Origin: a virus
Virus record (IMG/VR): IMGVR_UViG_3300028007_000008
Span: 1-24,180 of that record
DNA: 24,180 nt
Direction: 5' to 3' (one strand)
The first letter of the stretch is position 1; each line of letters starts with the position of its first letter. The position numbers and the translations under genes are program-made. Below, one piece after another: positions 1-19,344 of this stretch. Below the pieces are notes generated by a model that searched no databases, was not told where the DNA came from, and saw only the letters and a program-made list of their open reading frames with translations.

Positions 1-1509
1 CAACTGTACTGGCGGTCGCAGCGGCTGGGCTCTTCGGCCATCGAGATCAAGGCGTTCTCGTATGCGATGACGCAATTGGGCGGCTCTTCTCAAGGGGCTG
101 CCAACGCGATGGAGAGCATCGCCGAGTTTGTGAAAAGCTCACCAGGAAACGTTGATTTCCTTTTACAGTGGGGCGTTTCGCCCGAGCATATCGGCAATGC
201 CAAAAAGTCGCTCCAAGACTTGGGAGAGACGTTCAAAAAGCTGGACTACTGGACTGCCAAAAGCATTGCCGGGGCAATCGGCATTGATCCGCTTACGCTG
301 CAGGCGATGCTAAAGGATACGGGCGAATTCGAGAAATGGTACGCCGAGATGGCGGAGCGCATCGGCAAGTTGTTCGGTGTTAATCTCGACGATGCGTCCG
401 GCGCAGCAAAAGAATTCGCGACCAACCTTCGTATGCTGAAGGCCGAAGCCGAGCTCGCGTTCAATCTTGCACTGTACAAAGTTCTCGACTGGTTGCTCCC
501 ACGGCTTGAGGCGCTGGCGAAATGGGTGGAGGACATCCTCTCAGGCAAAAAGCTGTCGGGTGTCGGCGGCGAGTTCCAGAAGATTGCCAAGGACGTAATG
601 TTGCTGCTCGACGCGCTGGGCGAGCTCGCTGGCACGCCGTACATGCAGAATTTCGCCGACAAGATGCTGAGCGCGCTGGATCACGTGATCAAGGGGCTGA
701 CCGGATTGGTGAAATTGGTCAACGACGTCGTCAATGGAAATTGGGCGGCGGCTTGGGCTGACGTGAAAGGGATTGTCTGGCAGGGCTCAGGCGTACTTGA
801 TGATGTAACCGATGCTGTAGTCGGCTACGGCCAAGACAAGTACAACCGCGACCCTGTCGGTGACCCCCACAATCTGATGCCAGATTGGATGCATGGTAAC
901 GCCAACGACAACGAAGTTGGCGGGAGCGGAGGAGGTAGGCGAGGGGGTGGCGGCACAACCAAGGCACAGCAAGCCGAACGCCTGCTCATGGCGTCAGGCT
1001 TTTCCGCCCCGGTGGCAAAGGGTATTGCAGCGGTCCTCTGGGCCGAGTCAGGCCTTAACGAGCGTCGCTGGAATGGCGAGGGCAGCGGCGCCTATGGGCT
1101 GGCACAGTGGCTGACCAAGAGCCGCGTCGCTGAATTTGCGCGCAAGTTCGGGCATTCCATCTACGGGTCGAGCTTTGAAGAGCAGATCGCGTTCGTGGCG
1201 CATGAGTTGCGCACCACGCATTCGGCTGTCGGTGACCGCATCAGGCAAATGACTGACCCCCTAATGGTTGCTGCCCATGTTATCGACCAGTTCGAAGCGC
1301 CCGGCCCGGCTGGCGCGCGTGGAGACTTGCGTAGGGCTGGACAGTACCTCGGCGTATCTGGCTCCGGTCGGTCGGCAACCGTCAACCAGACCAACAGCTA
1401 TTCGATTGCGAGCAACCACGACCCGAAGGCGATCGCGCATGAAATTGCCGCCACGCAGCACGACATCAACCAGCGGCTCGTCGCGAATTTCGGGCTGATT
1501 GTGCAGTGA
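1..1509 (+). CDS. Tail tape-measure protein with C-terminal tail lysozyme domain (5'-truncated)
   Basis: The reading frame is open to the left edge, so the N-terminal part is missing; the ATG at 67 is only an internal Met. The visible 502 residues begin with helical, alanine- and leucine-rich sequence typical of the C-terminal third of tape-measure proteins (a helical segment around 160-240), then a glycine linker at 919-954. After it comes a compact domain with the helix WAESGLN, GAYGLAQW and a long amphipathic tail, matching the phage tail lysozyme family (Phage_lysozyme2). The likely catalytic Glu is encoded at 1045-1047. Tape-measure proteins set tail length and are ejected ahead of the DNA; a fused muramidase-type domain would open peptidoglycan locally during entry. 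The next gene starts inside its stop codon (GTGA overlap). The family assignment of the lysozyme end is good; the tape-measure role is inferred from position and composition. Confidence 0.8.
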   Translation, partial: QLYWRSQRLGSSAIEIKAFSYAMTQLGGSSQGAANAMESIAEFVKSSPGNVDFLLQWGVSPEHIGNAKKSLQDLGETFKKLDYWTAKSIAGAIGIDPLTLQAMLKDTGEFEKWYAEMAERIGKLFGVNLDDASGAAKEFATNLRMLKAEAELAFNLALYKVLDWLLPRLEALAKWVEDILSGKKLSGVGGEFQKIAKDVMLLLDALGELAGTPYMQNFADKMLSALDHVIKGLTGLVKLVNDVVNGNWAAAWADVKGIVWQGSGVLDDVTDAVVGYGQDKYNRDPVGDPHNLMPDWMHGNANDNEVGGSGGGRRGGGGTTKAQQAERLLMASGFSAPVAKGIAAVLWAESGLNERRWNGEGSGAYGLAQWLTKSRVAEFARKFGHSIYGSSFEEQIAFVAHELRTTHSAVGDRIRQMTDPLMVAAHVIDQFEAPGPAGARGDLRRAGQYLGVSGSGRSATVNQTNSYSIASNHDPKAIAHEIAATQHDINQRLVANFGLIVQ

Positions 1510-2327
1510 CCCCCGGCAAAGGCATCCTCCGCGTCTTCGGCGGCTTCTATGCCGAAGTAACCGTTCGCGAGCAGCATACCGACGACCTGACCATCACGAC
1601 GCACCCTGTCGAACGTGGAGCGCCAATCTCGGACCACGCCTTCAGGATGCCGGCGCTTCTGACCATCGAGGCCGGGTGGTCGGCGGCTGGCGCCTACGAA
1701 CAAGCAAACCCCTCAACGGCGGACACCAAGCCAAGGTCCAACTTCCAGAAGCTGACGGACGCCTACAACCGTCTATTGCCGACAGTCGCGGCAATCGGCG
1801 GGACCGACGCCGTGACCAAGCTCTCGACCGCCTACAACACCATCGCGCTGGGCAACGCGCTGACCTCGCAGTCGTCGACACAGAACCTGAACGACCTCTA
1901 CGGCCAGATCGCACCGGTGATCGATGAGTACAGCCCGGCAGCCGCACAGACGCTCGCAGGCATCGTCGCCAACATCGCCTCAACGCAGGACCAGCAAACC
2001 GGCACCGAAGACGGCGCCAAACCGCTACGCGACCTCTATGAGAAACTCATCCAGCTTCAGCGCAGCGCCAAGCTTATCTCAGTTGAAACCGGCAAACGCG
2101 CGTACGACAACATGCTGATCCGGTCGATCCGAACACAGACCGATCAGTCCTCGGAAAACATCCTGATGATCACCGCGCAGTTGCAGGAGGTTTTGCTCGT
2201 GGACACGGTTCAGACGACCATGCCGGCGACCGCCAGACGGGCTGATCCCGCAGCCTCTGGCGGGGTCACGCAGAAGGGCGTGAAGTCGGCCGTCAGCTAC
2301 TCCGGCCCGATCCCGACGTACGCCTGA
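1506..2327 (+). CDS. Dit-like baseplate/tail protein with inserted helical repeat
   Basis: This 273-residue protein starts with GTG overlapping the tape-measure stop. The N-terminus (about 8-62, strands around FGGFYAEVTV and the MPALLTIEAGW segment) and the C-terminal part (about 174-238, with KRAYDNMLIRSIRTQTDQ and a following ENILMITAQLQEV) resemble the Dit-like tail proteins that follow tape measures in contractile phages and help link tube, tape measure and hub. Between them, roughly residues 78-170 are helical and contain a motif of the type xLxDxYxxL at residues 82, 105, 127 and 173 (weaker at 149), that is, a period near 23 residues. This insertion is not what I know of the family core. 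The C-terminal 35 residues are Ala/Gly/Ser/Pro-rich and probably flexible. The position between tape measure and plug supports a baseplate role. Family assignment is by recall and moderately sure. Confidence 0.6.
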   Translation: MTPGKGILRVFGGFYAEVTVREQHTDDLTITTHPVERGAPISDHAFRMPALLTIEAGWSAAGAYEQANPSTADTKPRSNFQKLTDAYNRLLPTVAAIGGTDAVTKLSTAYNTIALGNALTSQSSTQNLNDLYGQIAPVIDEYSPAAAQTLAGIVANIASTQDQQTGTEDGAKPLRDLYEKLIQLQRSAKLISVETGKRAYDNMLIRSIRTQTDQSSENILMITAQLQEVLLVDTVQTTMPATARRADPAASGGVTQKGVKSAVSYSGPIPTYA

Positions 2328-2334
2328 GGCGCTT

Positions 2335-2646
2335 GTGGCAGCTTTCGAAATCCCTCTCACCGCTGAGCCGCAGACGTTCTCGGTCCAGCTGCTTGGCATC
2401 GCCTACCAGATGACCGTGCAGTGGCGGAACAATGCCCAAGGCGGCTGGGTGCTCGACATCGCCGACGCCGCTGGAACGCCGATCGTCAGCGGTATCGCGC
2501 TCGTCACCGGGACGGACCTTCTTGGCCAGTATGCCTATCTGGGCATCGGCGGCTCGCTGCTTGTGCTGAATAATGCTGGCGGCGATGATGCGCCGACGTT
2601 CACCGATCTCGGCACCGATACCCATCTCGTCTTCGTGACCGCCTGA
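2335..2646 (+). CDS. Baseplate plug protein, Pam3 gp18-like (DUF6983 type)
   Basis: This 103-residue all-beta protein starts at GTG 2335, seven bases after the preceding stop. It has the pattern of the small baseplate plug family named after cyanophage Pam3 gp18: an opening PQTFSVQLLGIAYQMTVQW, a central GGWVLDIADAAGTPIVSGI and the signature DLLGQYAYLGIGGSLLV. In Pam3 and in Pseudomonas phage E217-type baseplates, a protein of this kind plugs the tube end at the hub. Its place between the Dit-like and hub genes matches that arrangement. Nothing looks broken. The function is taken from family knowledge; the sequence shows only the conserved motifs and size. Confidence 0.7.
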   Translation: MAAFEIPLTAEPQTFSVQLLGIAYQMTVQWRNNAQGGWVLDIADAAGTPIVSGIALVTGTDLLGQYAYLGIGGSLLVLNNAGGDDAPTFTDLGTDTHLVFVTA

Positions 2647-2648
2647 CC

Positions 2649-3569
2649 ATGGCCACTCACAACCAGTTCATCCGCAAGGCGAGTCTGTTGATTGGCGACG
2701 GAACGACCGCCGTTGACATGTCCAATCTGCACTTCTCGTTCCGGATCAAACAGGCGGAAGTTGGCATCCCGCAGACGGCATCGATCCGGATCTACAACGT
2801 CTCGAACGTCACGTTTCAGCAGATTGTCGAGTACACCAAGGTCCAGCTCAGCGCCGGATATCAGCACGGCGCATTCGGGGTCATCTTCAACGGCGAGATC
2901 GTCCAGGCAAAGGCGGGCAGGGAAAACGCGGTCGATTCCTACATCGATATCATCGCCGCCGAAGGCTACCGAAGCCATCAGCAACCAATCTTCGTCACGT
3001 TGGCCGCCGGATCGACCGTGCTCGACATGGCGAATGCCGCAGCCGCCGCGATGGGCCGCAAGCTGAACAACTTCACGAGCGAAAAGCCTGCGCAGTTGCC
3101 GCGCGGTATCACTGCTTATGGTGCAGCGCGGCGTGTGCTGACCGATGCGGCGACCAAGATGGGGGCGATCTGGTACTTTTCGAACGAAGGCATTGACCTC
3201 GTCCCGGTCGACAGCCCCAAGAGAAAAGAGTCGGTAGTCTTGAACGGCGGCACCGGCATGATCGGCTGGCCGGAACAGACGCAGGACGGCATCCGCGTGC
3301 GCTGCCTGCTCAACCCGAACCTGACGCTTGGTGCGACGATTAAGCTGAACAATGCTTCCATTCAGGCGGCGACATTTGCCACCGCCTATCAAGCCCAAGT
3401 CGGGAACTACAACCTGCCCCGCCCCGACCCGGACGGTACCTACCGCATGTACGTGATCGAGCACTCCGGCAACACCAGGGGAAATGACTGGTACAGCGAC
3501 TTGGTCTGCCTCTCGGTCGATCTCACCAATGCAGGCATGACCGGCATCTTTCAGAGGTACCTGTTCTGA
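2649..3569 (+). CDS. Baseplate hub protein (gp27/E217 gp41-like)
   Basis: The 306-residue product starts at ATG 2649, two bases after the previous stop. It opens with a strand-rich domain containing the segment LHFSFRIKQAEVGIPQTASI, a 'structural epitope' pattern shared with hub proteins of simple contractile baseplates (T4 gp27 fold, protein D-like). Then come YIDIIAAEGYRSHQQ and an alanine-rich helix TVLDMANAAAAAM, followed by GAARRVLTDAATKMGAIWYF. The C-terminal half has the conserved stretch QDGIRVRCLLNPNLTLGATI. Hubs trimerise at the tube end and hold the spike, which is encoded directly downstream with a TGATG one-base overlap. The fold-level assignment rests on pattern and neighbours, not on a search. 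Confidence 0.62.
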   Translation: MATHNQFIRKASLLIGDGTTAVDMSNLHFSFRIKQAEVGIPQTASIRIYNVSNVTFQQIVEYTKVQLSAGYQHGAFGVIFNGEIVQAKAGRENAVDSYIDIIAAEGYRSHQQPIFVTLAAGSTVLDMANAAAAAMGRKLNNFTSEKPAQLPRGITAYGAARRVLTDAATKMGAIWYFSNEGIDLVPVDSPKRKESVVLNGGTGMIGWPEQTQDGIRVRCLLNPNLTLGATIKLNNASIQAATFATAYQAQVGNYNLPRPDPDGTYRMYVIEHSGNTRGNDWYSDLVCLSVDLTNAGMTGIFQRYLF

Positions 3570-4174
3570 TGGACCAGCGGCAACGCCTCGGCGACCCGAC
3601 AACAGCTATCGCGATGGCAACGCGCGAGCGACAAGCGCAAATGTACACCGCCCTGCCCGGCATTATCCAGTCCTTTGATCCCGCCGCGATGACCTGCGAA
3701 GTCCAGCCCTCGATCCAAGGCACGCTGTCCGATCCGAAGACCGGCAAGGCGACGAACGTGAACCTGCCGCTTCTGGTCGACTGTCCCGTGCAGTTTCCCT
3801 CTGGCGGCGGCGTCACGCTGACCATGCCGATTGCAGCGGACGACGAATGCCTCATCATCTTTGCCTCGCGCTGCATCGATGCCTGGTGGCAGAATGGCGG
3901 CATCCAGCCCCCAATGGTCTACCGCATGCACGACTTGTCGGATGGCTTCGTCATCCCCGGCATCTGGTCGCAGCCGCGTGTGCCGGCCGGCGTCTCGACC
4001 AGCAAGGCACAGCTGCGCAGCACCGACGGCGCTACAATTCTCGAGCTCGATCCGCAGGCGCAGCGCATCAACATGGTGGCGCCGGGCGGCGTCTACATCA
4101 ACGGCATCCACTTCGACGAGCACAAGCACAGCGACGTCCAAGCCGGATCAGGAATCAGCGGAGGCCCGCAATGA
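3569..4174 (+). CDS. Baseplate spike protein, gp138-type N-terminal domain with HxH tip
   Basis: This 201-residue protein begins at an ATG that overlaps the hub stop by one base. The N-terminal region (about 20-135) shows the OB-fold pattern of the gp138 spike family: a PGIIQSFDPAAMTCEVQPSI opening, a loop ending LPLLVDCPVQFPSGGG, then LTMPIAADDECLIIFASR and a WWQNGG turn. The C-terminus forms short repetitive strands (GATILELDPQAQRINMVAP) ending in HFDEHKHSDVQAGSG. The HKH triplet is the HxH type used by P2 gpV, phi92 gp138 and Mu gp45 spikes to bind an iron ion at the needle tip. The protein would be the membrane-piercing needle. The length is normal for the family and the gene is followed by an ATGA overlap with the wedge gene. 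Confidence 0.78.
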   Translation: MDQRQRLGDPTTAIAMATRERQAQMYTALPGIIQSFDPAAMTCEVQPSIQGTLSDPKTGKATNVNLPLLVDCPVQFPSGGGVTLTMPIAADDECLIIFASRCIDAWWQNGGIQPPMVYRMHDLSDGFVIPGIWSQPRVPAGVSTSKAQLRSTDGATILELDPQAQRINMVAPGGVYINGIHFDEHKHSDVQAGSGISGGPQ

Positions 4175-4632
4175 GAGTTCGCGCGCTCGACGCCAACGGC
4201 GACATGACTTTCGGCCTCAGCGCCGCCAACTTCCTCATCAATTCTGCAGCGGCGGTCGCGCAGTGCATCAATACCCGGCTTGGCCTGATCAAGGGTGAGT
4301 GGTTCCTCGACACGACTGAGGGCACCGATTGGGGCGGCAAGATACTCGGCCGTCAGCCCAAGGCGGGGTACGACGCCGAGATCCGCCGCGTCATTCTCGG
4401 CACGCCGGGGGTCACGCAAATCACCGCCTATTCCAGCGACCTGACCAATCGCGCGCTGGCGGTGAACGCGACGGTACTGACAGCATACAGCGCACAGTCG
4501 CTCGTACTTAGCGCGGCATTTGGCCGGGGGCTGCAGCCGGTTGCACCCGTTACCGGGTTCCCGGTCGGCACCTCACCGTCCCTCGCGTTGCTCGACTTCA
4601 CTTTCGTGCTCGATGAATCGGTTCTCGGATAA
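4171..4632 (+). CDS. Baseplate wedge protein, gp25/XkdS/Mu gp46-like
   Basis: I use the ATG at 4171, which overlaps the spike stop (ATGA) and gives 153 residues; an upstream start in the same frame would run through most of the spike gene. The middle contains GEWFLDTTEGTDWGGKILG followed by EIRRVILGTPGVTQITAY and a beta hairpin of alternating hydrophobic residues. This is the pattern of small wedge proteins of the W/gp25 or DUF2634 type (XkdS, Mu gp46), which connect the sheath to the J-type wedge. The next gene is the J/gp47 protein, as expected for this family. The C-terminal 40 residues form a further strand-rich piece. The call is supported strongly by synteny and moderately by sequence. 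Confidence 0.65.
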   Translation: MRVRALDANGDMTFGLSAANFLINSAAAVAQCINTRLGLIKGEWFLDTTEGTDWGGKILGRQPKAGYDAEIRRVILGTPGVTQITAYSSDLTNRALAVNATVLTAYSAQSLVLSAAFGRGLQPVAPVTGFPVGTSPSLALLDFTFVLDESVLG

Positions 4633-4646
4633 GGGCTACCGCAGAC

Positions 4647-5828
4647 GTGACAACCTATCCGCTTCCAACGCTGGGCGCCCAGGTGGGCCCGGCCGGGATC
4701 ACTGCGCCCTCTTTCGACGATACCCTGCTGTCGCTTCAGGCGACCTATCAGCAGATCTACGGCGCCGATGCTGTCCTCACTCCCGATACGCAAGACGGTC
4801 AGTGGATTGCGGCCATCGCGCAGGCAATTGCCGATGTGAATGCCGGGGCGATCGCGGTCTACAACAGCTTTTCGCCCAGCACCGCACAAGGCGTCGGCCT
4901 GTCCTCCGTCGTGAAGATCAATGGCCTTCGCCGCGAGACGCCGTCGAACTCCACTGCGCAGGTTCTGATCACCGGCACGGCAGGGACCGTCATCACGAAT
5001 GGACAGGTGCAGGATAGCAGCGGCAACGTCTGGAACCTGCCGACCACAGTCACCATTCCGGAAAGCAGCTCGATCACCGTCACAGCGACTGCTGCGCAGC
5101 TTGGGGCCATTTCCGCAGCTATCGGGACAATCACGAAAATCCTCAACCCGACGCGCGGCTGGATTTCTGCGACAAACACGTCCGCCGCCTCGCCGGGCGC
5201 GCCGGTTGAGAAGGACGCGACCCTGCGCCAGCGTCAGGCCCGGTCGACCAACCTGCCGGCCCGTACGCCGCTTTCAGCCATCCTCGCTGCTGTCCGCAAT
5301 CTTCCCGGCGTCTCGCGGGCAGAAGCGCATGAGAACGACACGGGGACGACCGATAGCGAAGGCGTGCCGGCCAACACGATCTGGCTGGTGGTCGAAGGAG
5401 GCGATACCACGGCGATCGCGACGGCGATTGCGAACGGCAAGATCGGCGTCGCGACCTACGGCAGCGTGATCCAGACCGTGACCGACGAGTTCGGCATACC
5501 GTCGACGGTCCGCTTCGACCGGCCGACTTACCGCCGCATCGTGGTCAACGTCACGCTGAAGCCGCTTGCAGGCTACACTGTGCAGACCGGCAACAACATC
5601 ATCGCGGCGATCAACGCCTACATCAACTCGCTGGCAGTCGGTGAAAGCGTGTTCCTCACGCAAGTGATTGCTGCTGCGATCCAAGGCAGCGGCGCTCCGA
5701 CCACCTTCAACCTGACAGCGCTCACCATGGCGGTCTACCCCGACTCACCGGCGGCGGCTGACCTTCCGATGGCGTTCAACCAGGCCCCGCAGCAGGCGCT
5801 GGCGGACATCAGTCTGGCGCTGATCTGA
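4647..5828 (+). CDS. Baseplate J/gp47 family wedge protein
   Basis: This 393-residue product starts at GTG 4647. It has the usual order of the J/gp47 family: an N-terminal helical region with LSLQATYQQIYGADAVL and DGQWIAAIAQAIADVNAGAI, a strand-rich middle with a variable QVQDSSGNVWNLP loop, and the conserved ARSTNLPARTPLSAILAAV-LPGV segment near residues 199-225. The family C-terminal domain follows, with RRIVVNVTLKPLAGY and a helix before SLAVGESVFLTQVIAAA. The length is typical (Mu gp47 is about 360 residues). The protein forms the periphery of the baseplate wedge and drives the change that triggers sheath contraction. It overlaps the following wedge gene by one base (TGATG). Confidence 0.9.
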   Translation: MTTYPLPTLGAQVGPAGITAPSFDDTLLSLQATYQQIYGADAVLTPDTQDGQWIAAIAQAIADVNAGAIAVYNSFSPSTAQGVGLSSVVKINGLRRETPSNSTAQVLITGTAGTVITNGQVQDSSGNVWNLPTTVTIPESSSITVTATAAQLGAISAAIGTITKILNPTRGWISATNTSAASPGAPVEKDATLRQRQARSTNLPARTPLSAILAAVRNLPGVSRAEAHENDTGTTDSEGVPANTIWLVVEGGDTTAIATAIANGKIGVATYGSVIQTVTDEFGIPSTVRFDRPTYRRIVVNVTLKPLAGYTVQTGNNIIAAINAYINSLAVGESVFLTQVIAAAIQGSGAPTTFNLTALTMAVYPDSPAAADLPMAFNQAPQQALADISLALI

Positions 5829-6493
5829 TGGCGGGCGACGTCACGCCCTACACCGGGCTGATCACCTCAAAGCATGCCGACAAGCCGAATTTCATGGCAA
5901 CGGTCGCGGCATCGGTGCAGCCGATTGCCGATACGCTTGCGACCTTGAACGGTCTGAACGCGGCATTCGATCTGGACCTTGCGCAGGGGCAGCAACTGGA
6001 CATCCTCGGCGAGTGGATCGGCGCAAGCCGGTTCGTCTCAAGTGCGCTGGACGGGGTCTATTTCAGCTTCGACATCAGCGGGCTTGGGTTTGAGCAGGGG
6101 GTCATTTGGAGTCCCGGCGAGCCCTTGACCGGTCTCATCGCTCTTCCGGATGACGTCTACCTGACGCTTCTCAAGGCCACGATCGTCGCCAACCATTGGG
6201 ATGGCTCGATCTCCGGCGCCTACACCGCATGGCAGACGCTGCTCGGGCCGCAGGGTTATCAGATCCTGATCCAGGACAATGGCGACATGACCATGGTCCT
6301 CGCGCTGCATGGTGCGCTGGTCGATCCGGTGTTCACTCAACTGTTCGCGGCTGGGGTCCTGGATCTGCGGCCGGCTGGCGTGGAAGCGTCCTACGTCATT
6401 CCGACCATTCCCGCCGCACCCTTCTTCGGCCTCGATATCGAAACCGAGTACGTCGACGGCCTCGATTTCGGTGCCTTCGGCCAGTTCACCTGA
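5828..6493 (+). CDS. Baseplate wedge protein, DUF2612 (Phage_Wedge1) family
   Basis: This 221-residue protein starts at an ATG sharing one base with the J-gene stop. The segment YTGLITSKHADKPNFMATVA, followed by LDLAQGQQLDILGEWIGASR, a PDDVYLTLLKATIVANHWDG block and a C-terminal DLRPAGV, is characteristic of DUF2612 proteins, the third wedge component after gp25- and J-like proteins (functional counterpart of Mu gp48 or P2 gpI). The C-terminal 25 residues (FFGLDIETEYVDGLDFGAFG) look like a repeated strand motif (GLDIE / GLDFG) that probably contacts the tail fibre encoded next. The protein would attach fibres to the baseplate. The family match is good; the fibre-docking role of the C-terminus is inference. 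Confidence 0.75.
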   Translation: MAGDVTPYTGLITSKHADKPNFMATVAASVQPIADTLATLNGLNAAFDLDLAQGQQLDILGEWIGASRFVSSALDGVYFSFDISGLGFEQGVIWSPGEPLTGLIALPDDVYLTLLKATIVANHWDGSISGAYTAWQTLLGPQGYQILIQDNGDMTMVLALHGALVDPVFTQLFAAGVLDLRPAGVEASYVIPTIPAAPFFGLDIETEYVDGLDFGAFGQFT

Positions 6494-8197: not shown

Positions 8198-10546
8198 ATG
8201 ACCTTTACCCCCGGCAAGGTGCTTACTGCCGCCGACCTCAACGCCGCGCTCGCGAACTACGTTCCGATCGCCTCGCTGGCTGCCACTGCATCCGGACAGG
8301 GCGGTTCGCTGGTCGGCCTGTCCACCGGCGATACGGTAGAGCAGTTTCTCGCAAAACTGATGGGTACGAATGGCGCCGGTATCATCGGTGCGGCTGGCGG
8401 CGGCTCGGTTCAGGCATTCTTCAATATGCTCATGTCGAGCACCGGCGCTACTGCGATCGGCTACGGTAGCGGGACGGTCAAGGCAGCGCTTGACGCCACC
8501 TCCATCTCGATTTCCGATCTCGGCTCGCGCGCTTCGTTTCTGAAGACCTATCCCTCGGCACTGCCCTATGAGGTCCTCCAGATCACCGGCGGCGGTGGTT
8601 CGGGCGGCACGCCCGGGACCTATGTCGGCGGCACCACCGGTGGCTTTGACGGGTTCACGTGGTCGGTGTTCGTCGGCTCGGATGGCAAGGCCGTCCCCCG
8701 TATCGATACACCAGGCATCTCGACCAGCAACACAGCGCCGACGCTTGTCATGCCGACGATCCCCGGCCTGACCGGCGCGACAACGCCTGTGGCGGTTGTG
8801 GGAACTATCCCGGTCAACCGGCTCTTTATGTCGCCGTCCACCGATGGCAGTCAGCGCATCGGCTGGATCAACAGTGCCGGGTCGCTCAGTCCCTACCTGA
8901 TGGCGGGCGTCCAGTACTCCGAATATCTGAAGGCAGGTGTCGACGCCGCCATAGCCTCGGTGACCAGCATCATTTCCGAGATCCAGACTGATGCCTTCGC
9001 GATGGCGAGAGTCGACAAGGATGGTTTCCTGATCGAACTGCTTGGCAACGACTTTCTGCAGCAGTCCCCGAACCAGACCTTTCTGCTGGACCTGATCAGC
9101 CACTCTACGATCGAGACCGATGCCTTCGCCTACGCGCTTGTCGACAGCGCCGGCTTCCTGATCGACGCGTTCATTGCTGACAGTACCGGTTCCTATTGGG
9201 CCAGCACGGGCAAGCCTATCCTAACTTTGGGAGCAATTCCGGACGTCAGCGCAGCCGCGCCGGTTGATGGCGACACGCTTTCGTTTGATGCCGCCACCGG
9301 CAAATGGAAGGCAAAGGCCCCAAGCACCGCCGATGTGACGCCCTACATGCCCGCAGGGAACTATCTTGCGGCTGCGATCTACGGCCAGTCGGTCTTCCGC
9401 GGTTTCGATACGACCGCCATCAGCACGAGCGCGTTTTCGGGCGGAGGTCTGCTGATGTTCAACGGCGGCATGTCCGGACTGGACTACTCGAACTCGGCCA
9501 ATCTGGCGTCGCTGACGAACGCGGTTGAGGCAGGGGTGGAAAGCGCTGGTCGCGGCGTCGGTGAAAGCTTCTCGCAGTTTTTCGCCAGTGAAGCAGGCTA
9601 TGCCTTCACCGCTGATGGCGTAAACCTGATCCTTTCGGTCCCGGCAGAAGGCGGCAAGAGCGCAGCCGAGCTTTCCAGCGGCGGCGCCTATTTCCCGCGC
9701 TTGCAATACATGATCGACGCGATCGACACGTTGGCGCGCGCCGGCGGCAAGGTGCCCGATGTCGTCCACATCGTCTATTGCCAGGGCGAGGCCGATACAG
9801 TGGGCGGCACTTCCGCGGCGCTGTGGTATTCCCAGATCGAGACCGGCATTCGGCAGCCTTTCGAGACCTATTGCCAGACCAAGTTTGGCCGGAAAACCAA
9901 GGTCCGGGTCATCATGACCCAGGTGGCAAGCCACGAGTTCTACGGCATCACCGACCCGGCCATCGCGCGGCAGGTGCTGGCCATGTGCAACACCGACCCG
10001 AACTACATTCTTGCCGGTCCGATGTACCAGTATAACTATGGCGCCGCCGGGATCGGCTCACACCTGCTCAACGCGACCGAGGTCAAGTGGGCGGCTGCCA
10101 TGTGCGGCCGTGCCCTTCAGCGCGCCGCGCGCGGCGTGCGGCACAAGTGGATCAATCCGCTGCGCGCCTGGCAGGATGGTCCGCGCACGGTTGCCATCGA
10201 GTACGATGTGCCGGTTGGCCCATTGGTGATCGACACCGTCTCTGTGACGGATCCCGGCCAGAAGGGCTTCAACCTCTATTCCGGATCGACGGAGGTGCCG
10301 ATCTCAGCGGTCTCGATCGTCGGCCTCGGCAAGCGAACCGTCCTGCTCACGACCAGCTCAGACATCCCGGCAGGCTCAATCCGCGTCGACTACGCCCACA
10401 AGGGCGGCGCAACCAACGTCAACGCCGGGCGGACAACCGGGTCTCGCGGGTGCCTCCGTGACAGCGATCCTGCCGTTTTCGACCCCTCTGGGATCAACAA
10501 GCCGCTCTTCAACTGGGCCCCCATCCATCGCGTCACCGTAGGATAA
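8198..10546 (+). CDS. Tailspike / receptor-binding protein with SGNH (sialate acetylesterase-like) domain
   Basis: The 782-residue product opens with MTFTPGKVLTAADLNAAL, a common attachment motif of fibres and spikes. A strand-rich shaft follows, including two related 25-residue segments (8978-9052, 9107-9181) and a DTLSFDAATGKWKA fibre repeat near residue 365. Around residue 390 an enzyme-like domain begins. IYGQSVFRG carries a GQS nucleophile block (Ser398) and VYCQGEAD matches the WxQGExD block (Gln529, Glu531, Asp533). GSHLLNATEVKWAAAM carries the C-terminal His block (His622). These are the blocks of SASA/DUF303-type SGNH esterases that remove O-acetyl groups from surface polysaccharides. 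The usual Asp of a DxxH block is not in place here (the residues before His are IGS). A beta-sandwich C-terminus (about 645-782) follows. Likely role: host capsule or O-antigen recognition and deacetylation; activity is inferred. Confidence 0.72.
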   Translation: MTFTPGKVLTAADLNAALANYVPIASLAATASGQGGSLVGLSTGDTVEQFLAKLMGTNGAGIIGAAGGGSVQAFFNMLMSSTGATAIGYGSGTVKAALDATSISISDLGSRASFLKTYPSALPYEVLQITGGGGSGGTPGTYVGGTTGGFDGFTWSVFVGSDGKAVPRIDTPGISTSNTAPTLVMPTIPGLTGATTPVAVVGTIPVNRLFMSPSTDGSQRIGWINSAGSLSPYLMAGVQYSEYLKAGVDAAIASVTSIISEIQTDAFAMARVDKDGFLIELLGNDFLQQSPNQTFLLDLISHSTIETDAFAYALVDSAGFLIDAFIADSTGSYWASTGKPILTLGAIPDVSAAAPVDGDTLSFDAATGKWKAKAPSTADVTPYMPAGNYLAAAIYGQSVFRGFDTTAISTSAFSGGGLLMFNGGMSGLDYSNSANLASLTNAVEAGVESAGRGVGESFSQFFASEAGYAFTADGVNLILSVPAEGGKSAAELSSGGAYFPRLQYMIDAIDTLARAGGKVPDVVHIVYCQGEADTVGGTSAALWYSQIETGIRQPFETYCQTKFGRKTKVRVIMTQVASHEFYGITDPAIARQVLAMCNTDPNYILAGPMYQYNYGAAGIGSHLLNATEVKWAAAMCGRALQRAARGVRHKWINPLRAWQDGPRTVAIEYDVPVGPLVIDTVSVTDPGQKGFNLYSGSTEVPISAVSIVGLGKRTVLLTTSSDIPAGSIRVDYAHKGGATNVNAGRTTGSRGCLRDSDPAVFDPSGINKPLFNWAPIHRVTVG
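8978..9052 (+). repeat. Tailspike shaft repeat copy 1 (25 residues)
   Basis: This segment encodes the core TDAFAMARVDKDGFLIE and pairs with the copy at 9107-9181; 14 of 25 residues are identical. A TDAFA-x-A-x-VD-xx-GFLI core of this type is common in phage fibre shafts and probably forms a repeated beta turn. Confidence 0.7.
9107..9181 (+). repeat. Tailspike shaft repeat copy 2 (25 residues)
   Basis: This is the second copy of the shaft repeat, core TDAFAYALVDSAGFLID, 14 of 25 residues identical to copy 1. It precedes the linker leading to the SGNH domain. Confidence 0.7.
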
Positions 10547-17676: not shown

Positions 17677-19344
17677 GTGGCGGGCACGACACCAGAGCCT
17701 TTGCCGCGCCTTGATCCGGCGGAAGCGATCGCGTTCTTCCGCGCCAAGGGCTGGGAGATCGCCTTCGACTGGCGTGACGTTTGGGCGGAGGAGAACATCC
17801 GCGCCTTCACCGTTGCGAAAGCGATGAGCCGCGACCTTCTCGAGGACATCCGCGGTGCCGTCGATACCGCACTCGCCGAAGGCCAGACGCTGCAGCAGTT
17901 TGCCAAGGAACTTGCGCCGCGCCTGTTTGCGAAGGGCTGGTGGGGCAAGAAGCTGATGACCGACCCGGCGACGGGCGAACAGAAGGTTGTCCAGCTCGGC
18001 AGTCCGGCGCGCCTTCGCACGATCTATGAGACCAACCTGCGCACGAGCTACATGGCTGGGCGCTGGCAGCGGATCGAGCGATCGAAGGCACTGTTCCCGT
18101 TCATCCGGTATGTCTCGGTGCTCGATGGGCGGGAGCGGCCGCAGCACCATGCCTGGCACGGCACGATCCTGCCGGTCGACCATCCCTGGTGGGACACGCA
18201 CTTCCCGCCTTGCGGCTGGGGCTGCCGGTGCGATGGTCAGCCGATCAACCGCCGGATCATGGAGCGCCGCAACTGGAAGAGCGAGGCGCCGCCCGAATTC
18301 GCCAAGCGCAACTATGTCAACAAGCGGACCGGCGAGGTCATCCGGGTCGAGGCGGGCATCGATCCCGGCTGGGGCTATAACGTGGGCAAAGCGCCGCACG
18401 ATGGGATCGCGCCTGCGCCGCGGCTGGGTGGCGACATGGGCGAACTCAATGCGGCGACGTTCACTGCGGCTGAGTTCGAAAAGGTCAAAGGCTTCTTCGG
18501 CGGGTTCGGTCTTGAGGATCGCGCGGCGGCGATGAAAGGCAAGATCTGGCAGGACGCAGCCGGTTGGCCGGTGCCGATCTCGCTGGGGCTGCTGCGCGGG
18601 CCGACAGGGCGCATGGTCAAGCTACGCCGGATGGAGCTGCTTGCACTCACGCTTGCCGGCCAGGTGCTGTTGCAACCCGATACGATTAGCTGGCTCTGGA
18701 TCAAAGGTGAGGATGGCCGGCTGCTCCTCGTGCGCCGCTACATGTCTGCCGCCGGCGTGGTCGATATCGGTGGTAGCTTCTGGCGTTGGCGCGCCGGCGC
18801 TGCGCGTGGGCTTGCCCAGGGCAAGCTCATCTGGACGGCTGAGAAGGGCGTGCTGGCTGCCTATGATCCTCATCAGGCCAGGCATCCGAAGGGAAGCCGG
18901 GACGGCGGACGGTTTCGCAGTACCGGGCGCTCTGCTGCTGCGGCGGCGCTTTCAGGGGCTGAGCTTCCGCAGCACGTCAAGCCTTTCAACACGGCGATCC
19001 TTGGCGCGGTCTCCAGCGATGCTGCTGCCGTTGCAGCTAGGGCCGGTCTCGATATCAGCGGCAGAGGTGTGCTGCTCGACCAGTCCGGGGCAAAGCACAT
19101 CCTTCAGCGGCACGGCCCGAGGGCGCAACGTCGCAAGGGCGAAGATCCCGTCGGACCATCCGACATGCTTTCGGCCCATCGCCTGCTCAATGCCGCGCAT
19201 TCCTTTTCCGATGAGGGTGTGCATCGGCATGGCATGACACGCATCGCGGCCCACACGACTGGCTCGAATGGCAAGCCGATGCGGATCATCGTCGATCGCA
19301 GCAAGCGGAGCCTGCGGATCGTCACCATGTTCCATGTGGTTTGA
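17677..19344 (+). CDS. Head morphogenesis protein (Mu gp30/F, SPP1 gp7 type) fused to two PBECR-like nuclease domains
   Basis: The product is a 555-residue protein starting at GTG 17677. Residues 15-185 are the minor head protein: FFRAKGWEIAFDWRDVWAEE, YETNLRTSYMAGRW (117-130), VLDGRERPQHHAWHG and the cysteine cluster PPCGWGCRC (Cys179, 183, 185). About 285-385 looks like a PBECR2-type (barnase-EndoU-ColicinE5/D-RelE-like) domain: WPVPISLGLL (297 on), PDTISWLW (334-341) and LLLVRRYMSA. Next is RHPKGSRDGGRFRST (from 402), a short motif common in phage head proteins and possibly a cleavage or linker site. About 455-555 resembles PBECR3: AKHILQRHG (His474, His479), DMLSAHRLL, and the TMFHVV end. 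Mu F is only about 425 residues, so the C-terminal 370 residues are an accessory cargo. Such domains may be packaged in the capsid and act as a toxin on delivery; catalysis is inferred. Confidence 0.85.
   Translation: MAGTTPEPLPRLDPAEAIAFFRAKGWEIAFDWRDVWAEENIRAFTVAKAMSRDLLEDIRGAVDTALAEGQTLQQFAKELAPRLFAKGWWGKKLMTDPATGEQKVVQLGSPARLRTIYETNLRTSYMAGRWQRIERSKALFPFIRYVSVLDGRERPQHHAWHGTILPVDHPWWDTHFPPCGWGCRCDGQPINRRIMERRNWKSEAPPEFAKRNYVNKRTGEVIRVEAGIDPGWGYNVGKAPHDGIAPAPRLGGDMGELNAATFTAAEFEKVKGFFGGFGLEDRAAAMKGKIWQDAAGWPVPISLGLLRGPTGRMVKLRRMELLALTLAGQVLLQPDTISWLWIKGEDGRLLLVRRYMSAAGVVDIGGSFWRWRAGAARGLAQGKLIWTAEKGVLAAYDPHQARHPKGSRDGGRFRSTGRSAAAAALSGAELPQHVKPFNTAILGAVSSDAAAVAARAGLDISGRGVLLDQSGAKHILQRHGPRAQRRKGEDPVGPSDMLSAHRLLNAAHSFSDEGVHRHGMTRIAAHTTGSNGKPMRIIVDRSKRSLRIVTMFHVV

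Follow-up and report, generated by a model that had tools for sequence, protein, structure and literature searches.

A long, predicted helical insert with a repeated motif in the likely tail tube initiator of Novosphingobium-linked phages

What is a long, predicted helical insert doing in a protein of the phage tail tip? The question is raised by the 273-residue product of positions 1506..2327 (+ strand) of a viral sequence of 24,180 nucleotides (IMG/VR record IMGVR_UViG_3300028007_000008; "the window" below is this whole stretch of DNA), whose GTG start overlaps the stop of the tape-measure gene. A preliminary description called the product a Dit-like baseplate protein and placed between its conserved halves a block of regular helical repeats of about 23 residues, proposed as a hairpin arm projecting from the tail tip and possibly docking the tape-measure C terminus or fibers. 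Our analyses uphold a repeated motif and a predicted helical insert; they do not uphold one of the five proposed motif copies, at residue 149, or the regular units.

The frame at 1506-2327 matched the Pfam family Dit_like (PF21821) with an E value of 2.3e-32 (112.2 bits, against a cut-off of 24.2), and the conserved positions D26, T31, H33, P34, D43, H44, T195, G196, Y200, and M203 are all there, each with an identical residue in 102 to 106 of 106 aligned rows. The nearest solved sequence was Pam3 gp17 (9.2e-07 with the single sequence, 6.9e-29 with profile A4), and the core of the AlphaFold model showed the tube fold of the same protein (7yfz_a; Z of 13.4, rmsd of 2.1 over 114 residues), so that the assignment to Dit-like baseplate proteins is borne out by both sequence and fold. 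"Dit-like" is only the name of the family; the role of the product is likely that of a tail tube initiator. Its gene sits between the tape measure and the plug and hub genes, in the order tape measure, initiator, plug, hub, spike, gp25-like, J (Table 1). A plug gene is thus present, and a Pfam search of the initiator gave no LysM match, which fits the expectation for the plug type of baseplate, namely, a plug gene and an initiator without LysM, as set out in the available text of PMC11915804. We infer from family membership that the initiator belongs to a contractile-tailed phage with a simple baseplate and forms a hexameric ring.

The tape-measure frame is open to the start of the window. The protein encoded by 4171..4632 had no Pfam match; the name gp25-like is our own, and we take the protein as the sheath initiator. 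The DUF2612 protein is taken, by gene order, to be a second wedge protein. Elsewhere in the window, positions 17677-19344 encode a Mu F-like head protein, the later part of which gave weak, subthreshold matches to the PBECR2 and PBECR3 nuclease families, and a 782-residue frame downstream of the baseplate genes (8198-10546) had no Pfam match at an E value of 0.1.

Table 1. Features of the tail-tip region of the window and of the initiator insert
Feature	Residues	Nucleotides	Strand	Basis
Tape-measure protein, 3' part, tail lysozyme domain		67..1509	+	PF18013, E 2.1e-16; phrog tape-measure families
Insert, between beta3 and family helix	~61-172	1686..2021	+	Slot length, L169, dN/dS
Predicted insert helix	79-119	1740..1862	+	AlphaFold, block-mean pLDDT 73-86 for residues 81-120
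Motif copy 1, KLTDAYNRL	82-90	1749..1775	+	Free motif search
Motif copy 2, KLSTAYNTI	105-113	1818..1844	+	Free motif search; DNA likeness to copy 1
Predicted insert helix	124-142	1875..1931	+	AlphaFold
Motif copy 3, NLNDLYGQI	127-135	1884..1910	+	Free motif search
Predicted insert helix	144-167	1935..2006	+	AlphaFold
Claimed degenerate copy, TLAGIVANI	149-157	1950..1976	+	Unsupported
Conserved family helix with claimed last copy, PLRDLYEKL (173, nt 2022)	171-187	2016..2066	+	
Baseplate plug, Pam3 gp18-like		2335..2646	+	PF22479, E 4.1e-26
Baseplate hub, E217 gp41-like		2649..3569	+	PF22759, E 4.1e-11; phrog_196 baseplate hub
Spike-like protein with Apex motif		3569..4174	+	PF18352 and PF18946
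gp25-like protein with C-terminal extension		4171..4632	+	phrog_120 baseplate wedge subunit, E 1.3e-24
Baseplate_J wedge protein		4647..5828	+	PF04865, E 9.4e-15
DUF2612 protein, after J-like wedge gene		5828..6493	+	PF11041, E 5.3e-45

Measured as the residues between the columns of W58 and Y178, the slot that holds the insert comprises 119 residues in 4 rows and 10 to 67 in the other 102 (median of the 106, 26); the loop between beta3 and the family helix thus varies widely in this family, from 10 to 119 residues. Besides the window and L019, the 106 rows comprise 104 entries of a list of 108 (thinned at 90% identity from 145; L085, L115, L127, and L128 were excluded); the loci came from pattern scans, at least 68 in one and the best 80 of at least 554 in another, so that the length range is that of a sample, and all length comparisons take the loci as independent, ignoring kinship. 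A locus found later and standing outside these rows, L168, has a slot of 100 residues, and L169, which is collinear with the window over the genes on its contig, has one of 16. Against the family the insert is wider than first drawn (about residues 61-172). It had also been held to be foreign to standard family members: its length is indeed unusual, but slot length varies across the family, and an insertion in this slot has been described for gp11 of Vibrio phage XM1. Searches for relatives of the insert gave a single match, at an E value of 4, in the phage collection, nothing better than 0.4 among PDB sequences, and no Pfam family at 0.1. Long slots elsewhere (L088, L091, L092, L094, L099, L102, L160, and L168) hold different sequence, rich in Ala, Gly, and Ser; by our reading, some appear to contain glycine-zipper-like stretches, unlike the insert of the window.

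The motif starts at residues 82, 105, 127, 149, and 173 (nucleotides 1749, 1818, 1884, 1950, and 2022) and their spacings of 23, 22, 22, and 24 had been given correctly. A free search of residues 61-187 for the best four similar 9-mers returned exactly those at 82, 105, 127, and 173, with a score of 66 that was reached by none of 5000 composition shuffles (maximum, 65) and none of 2000 shuffles preserving the hydrophobic/polar/Gly-Pro pattern. For three copies within the insert only (61-170), 13 of 3000 composition shuffles and 32 of 2000 pattern-preserving shuffles reached the score. In a control with real proteins, 5.1% of 1200 tiles (out of 1844, each of 127 residues, taken from long open frames in related loci) scored as high; the eight top-scoring tiles, which alone were inspected, were collagen-like. 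The insert carries a repeated L-x-x-x-Y helix motif, and the four copies stand above chance in shuffles. Longer self-similarity of the block is marginal: the best ungapped pair (77-94 and 122-139, lag 45) was equaled in 2 of 300 composition shuffles of residues 76-187, and in 13 (61-187) and 19 (61-170) of 300 pattern-preserving shuffles. No single lag between 8 and 45 was significant (p 0.18), likeness at the DNA level was found only between copies 1 and 2 (21 nucleotides, 81%, lag 69), and TRF listed no tandem array in 1400-2400.

Two of the five proposed copies fared differently. That at 149 had a mean score of 2.8 against the other four, lower than three other windows of the block, and is not supported. 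The one at 173 is motif-like, but it lies within the conserved family helix (of the 106 rows, 105 have Y178 and 98 have Q185) and hence outside the insert. With copies 1 and 2 sharing a predicted helix, no copy at 149, and the last copy in the family helix, regular 23-residue units were not found. The placement of that last copy bears on the origin of the insert, for which one candidate is the family's own linker-helix segment, duplicated in tandem: a score of 20 against this last copy is obtained with copy 1 and again with copy 3, and the two Pfam matches of the protein overlap at profile positions 38-73. Against a profile built from 116 distinct family helices, however, the score of the best window of the insert was reached by 631 of 3000 shuffles and the sum of its best three windows by 225 of 3000; such an origin is thus unsupported against the family profile, and we consider it quite doubtful.

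AlphaFold modeling of the whole protein as a single chain from the 106-row alignment (mean pLDDT, 81; pTM, 0.64) predicted, with medium confidence, three helices in the insert, after which comes the family helix (171-187). Averaged by block, pLDDT within the insert ranged from 55 to 86 and was low at its edges, and this part of the model was in effect informed by the four insert-bearing rows only. A model of the L001 insert by itself, from a four-row alignment, gave nearly identical helix boundaries with a mean pLDDT of 51.6 and lends them weak support; its best PDB match was a designed protein (Z of 10.8, rmsd of 3.8, 127 aligned residues), and because of that low pLDDT such matches would say no more than "helical bundle-like," so that no fold was assigned. 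Residues 98-100 of the four carriers read GGT, GGP, or GGS, which may mark a break in helix 79-119, whereas both predictions leave this helix unbroken. In the single-chain model, then, the insert was neither disordered nor one helix without units. The proposed hairpin arm stands as far as helices are predicted and projection is likely by analogy; as a set of regular 23-residue hairpins it does not.

Once recurrences are merged, four carriers of the insert were found: the window, L001, L002, and L019. The contig of L001 recurs identically as L086, and its gene is identical to one in Novosphingobium sp. NDB2Meth1 (L018); L002 recurs as L087; and L019 is a Novosphingobium MAG. The insert-bearing phages are thus a small clade linked to Novosphingobium, two of them having been found in Novosphingobium genomes; among 397 genomes of the NDB2Meth1 family, the one match was NDB2Meth1 itself. 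Over six pairs, dN/dS of the insert was 0.07-0.16, falling to 0.03 or less in residues 105-140, compared with 0.01-0.10 for residues 7-60 and 0.06-0.10 for residues 173-240 (one pair saturated). The whole insert is under purifying selection and is overall somewhat less constrained than the core, while its middle (105-140) is constrained at least as strongly as the core. These values bear on the idea that the phage tolerates the insert as a folded decoration, one that takes up room around the ring and has no particular partner. The different, often Ala/Gly-rich sequences in other long slots indicate that the slot accepts many inserts, and the weaker constraint on the insert as a whole and the low pLDDT at its edges are what such a decoration would lead one to expect; the constraint on residues 105-140 and the complete lack of indels in the insert among the four sequences (aligned, they show a single gap, at residue 2 of L002) argue against it, and we regard mere decoration as unlikely, if not strikingly so.

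A guide to function is offered by XM1 gp11, a baseplate organization protein (PDB 7kh1) that matches Dit_like (E value, 1.9e-19) and has the fold of the window's protein (Z of 11.2, rmsd of 3.6, 125 aligned residues). As described in the available part of the XM1 paper (PMC10457771), gp11 has a long insertion, residues 85-127, in the equivalent slot before the family helix, and this insertion touches gp12, which is immunoglobulin-like, and the (gp16)2-gp17 wedges; by our reading of the sequence, beta3 (about 61-70) and the family helix (149 onward) would flank it. By analogy, the insert studied here most likely projects outward. We lean slightly toward a reading in which it is an outward brace between the tube ring, the plug, and the wedge and sheath-initiator modules. 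In the Novosphingobium-linked clade, the beta3-to-helix loop would have gained about 100 residues and become a helical domain. The hexameric ring would thus send six of these domains outward into the gap between the ring, the plug protein, and the wedge/sheath-initiator modules, where they would keep the wedges braced to the hub up to the moment of contraction. The proposed partners are the plug and the Baseplate_J wedge protein, with the gp25-like protein as a proposed neighbor; hexamer, outward position, and partners we infer by analogy with XM1 gp11. The somewhat weaker constraint on the insert than on the core (0.07-0.16 versus 0.01-0.10) speaks against a brace.

The docking of the tape-measure C terminus, as first suggested, would draw on the adjacency of the two genes, whose products are both expected at the tail tip. 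A profile built, at 67 loci with slots below 40, from the C-terminal 48 residues of the upstream frames matched all 18 tails from loci with slots of 40 or more, those of the four insert carriers included, at E values of 7.4e-05 or better (21 of the 106 rows, which had no usable upstream frame, were excluded). The expected link between insert length and tape-measure C-terminal type thus did not appear, and docking is disfavored because tail type is constant across slot lengths, although one and the same tail might still be docked by inserts that vary. Within the clade, moreover, the insert is kept where the tape measure changes: the tail of L002 differs, and the tape measure of L001 (L001 1193-2989), whose C-terminal tail resembles that of the window, had no Pfam match at an E value of 0.1, whereas those of the window and L169 match Phage_lysozyme2. 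In XM1 the slot insertion touches gp12 and the wedges instead (PMC10457771, available text), and in Mu and A-1(L) the end of the tape measure meets the hub and spike, according to the available parts of PMC11915804 and PMC10966104. Docking of the tape measure therefore seems to us very improbable. Nothing in these analyses pointed to the docking of fibers, the other role first suggested.

The insert-less L169 offers a view of the putative partners of a brace. Over the BLAST-aligned parts, its plug, hub, spike, gp25-like, and J-like proteins (the last from a gene cut by the contig end) are 45-60% identical to those of the window with at most 12 gap positions, so that no large partner change accompanies the insert, which counts against a brace. 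The exception is the C terminus of the gp25-like protein, outside the BLAST alignment, which is about 30 residues longer in all four carriers than in L169. It is conceivable that the insert mainly clasps this sheath initiator, thereby strengthening the start of the sheath, and that the C-terminal extension of the sheath initiator coevolved with the insert. Each XM1 gp11 holds two sheath initiators (PMC10457771, available text), and slot length and gp25 tail length are weakly correlated (Spearman 0.45 over 70 loci, kinship otherwise ignored; 0.36, p 0.003, over 67 loci with the clade reduced to one); L095, however, combines a comparable tail with a short slot, of 32 residues. The tail values themselves cover 70 of the 106 rows (72 had a recognizable gp25-like frame, and 70 gave a tail length with the pattern used) and are uncorrected for kinship, and at least one is wrong, the 96 of L092 being a pattern error in a sequence without such a tail. 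A clasp of this kind we consider quite unlikely. Still more ambitious, and distinctly improbable in our view, is a sixfold collar outside the ring, made up of the repeat-built helical domains and serving with the plug as an additional contraction lock, by which the sheath initiator and the wedges would be clamped to the ring. Should the insert indeed be a brace, the way in which a simple baseplate retains its wedges before contraction could be read from the length and content of the loop, and the insert-bearing clade and the collinear L169 form a natural pair for testing it.

Inserts at the equivalent site are known from related phages; what is unusual here is the length and the short repeated motif. 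In the baseplate literature examined, as far as its available text goes, XM1 provides the only insertion in a tube initiator (PMC10457771). The likeness to XM1 would be one of position only: the searches above brought up no sequence relative of the insert, the profile comparison of the window's protein with XM1 gp11 aligned only the half after the slot, and the XM1 insertion is called "loop-like" in the available text of PMC10457771, whereas three helices are predicted here. XM1 gp12 also has no Pfam match, unlike the window's plug, which matches PF22479; the XM1 gp12 gene (L187 1798-2154) encodes 118 residues, compared with the 188 given in the available text of PMC10457771. The closest solved relative in sequence and fold, gp17 of cyanophage Pam3 (PDB 7yfz), has no insert and lacks 20 profile positions in the slot, while the window's plug matches the family of Pam3 gp18. 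As in the window's protein, the tube-like domain is enlarged by extra material in the initiators of Mu (gp43), Milano, and A-1(L). The extra part of the Mu (helix-rich) and A-1(L) (alpha/beta) initiators is described in the available parts of PMC11915804 and PMC10966104 as a separate domain joined to the tube-like domain, and none of the three has a beta3-helix insertion according to these descriptions, by which rather than by sequence they were compared. The helix-rich domain of the Mu initiator meets the wedges (PMC11915804, available text).
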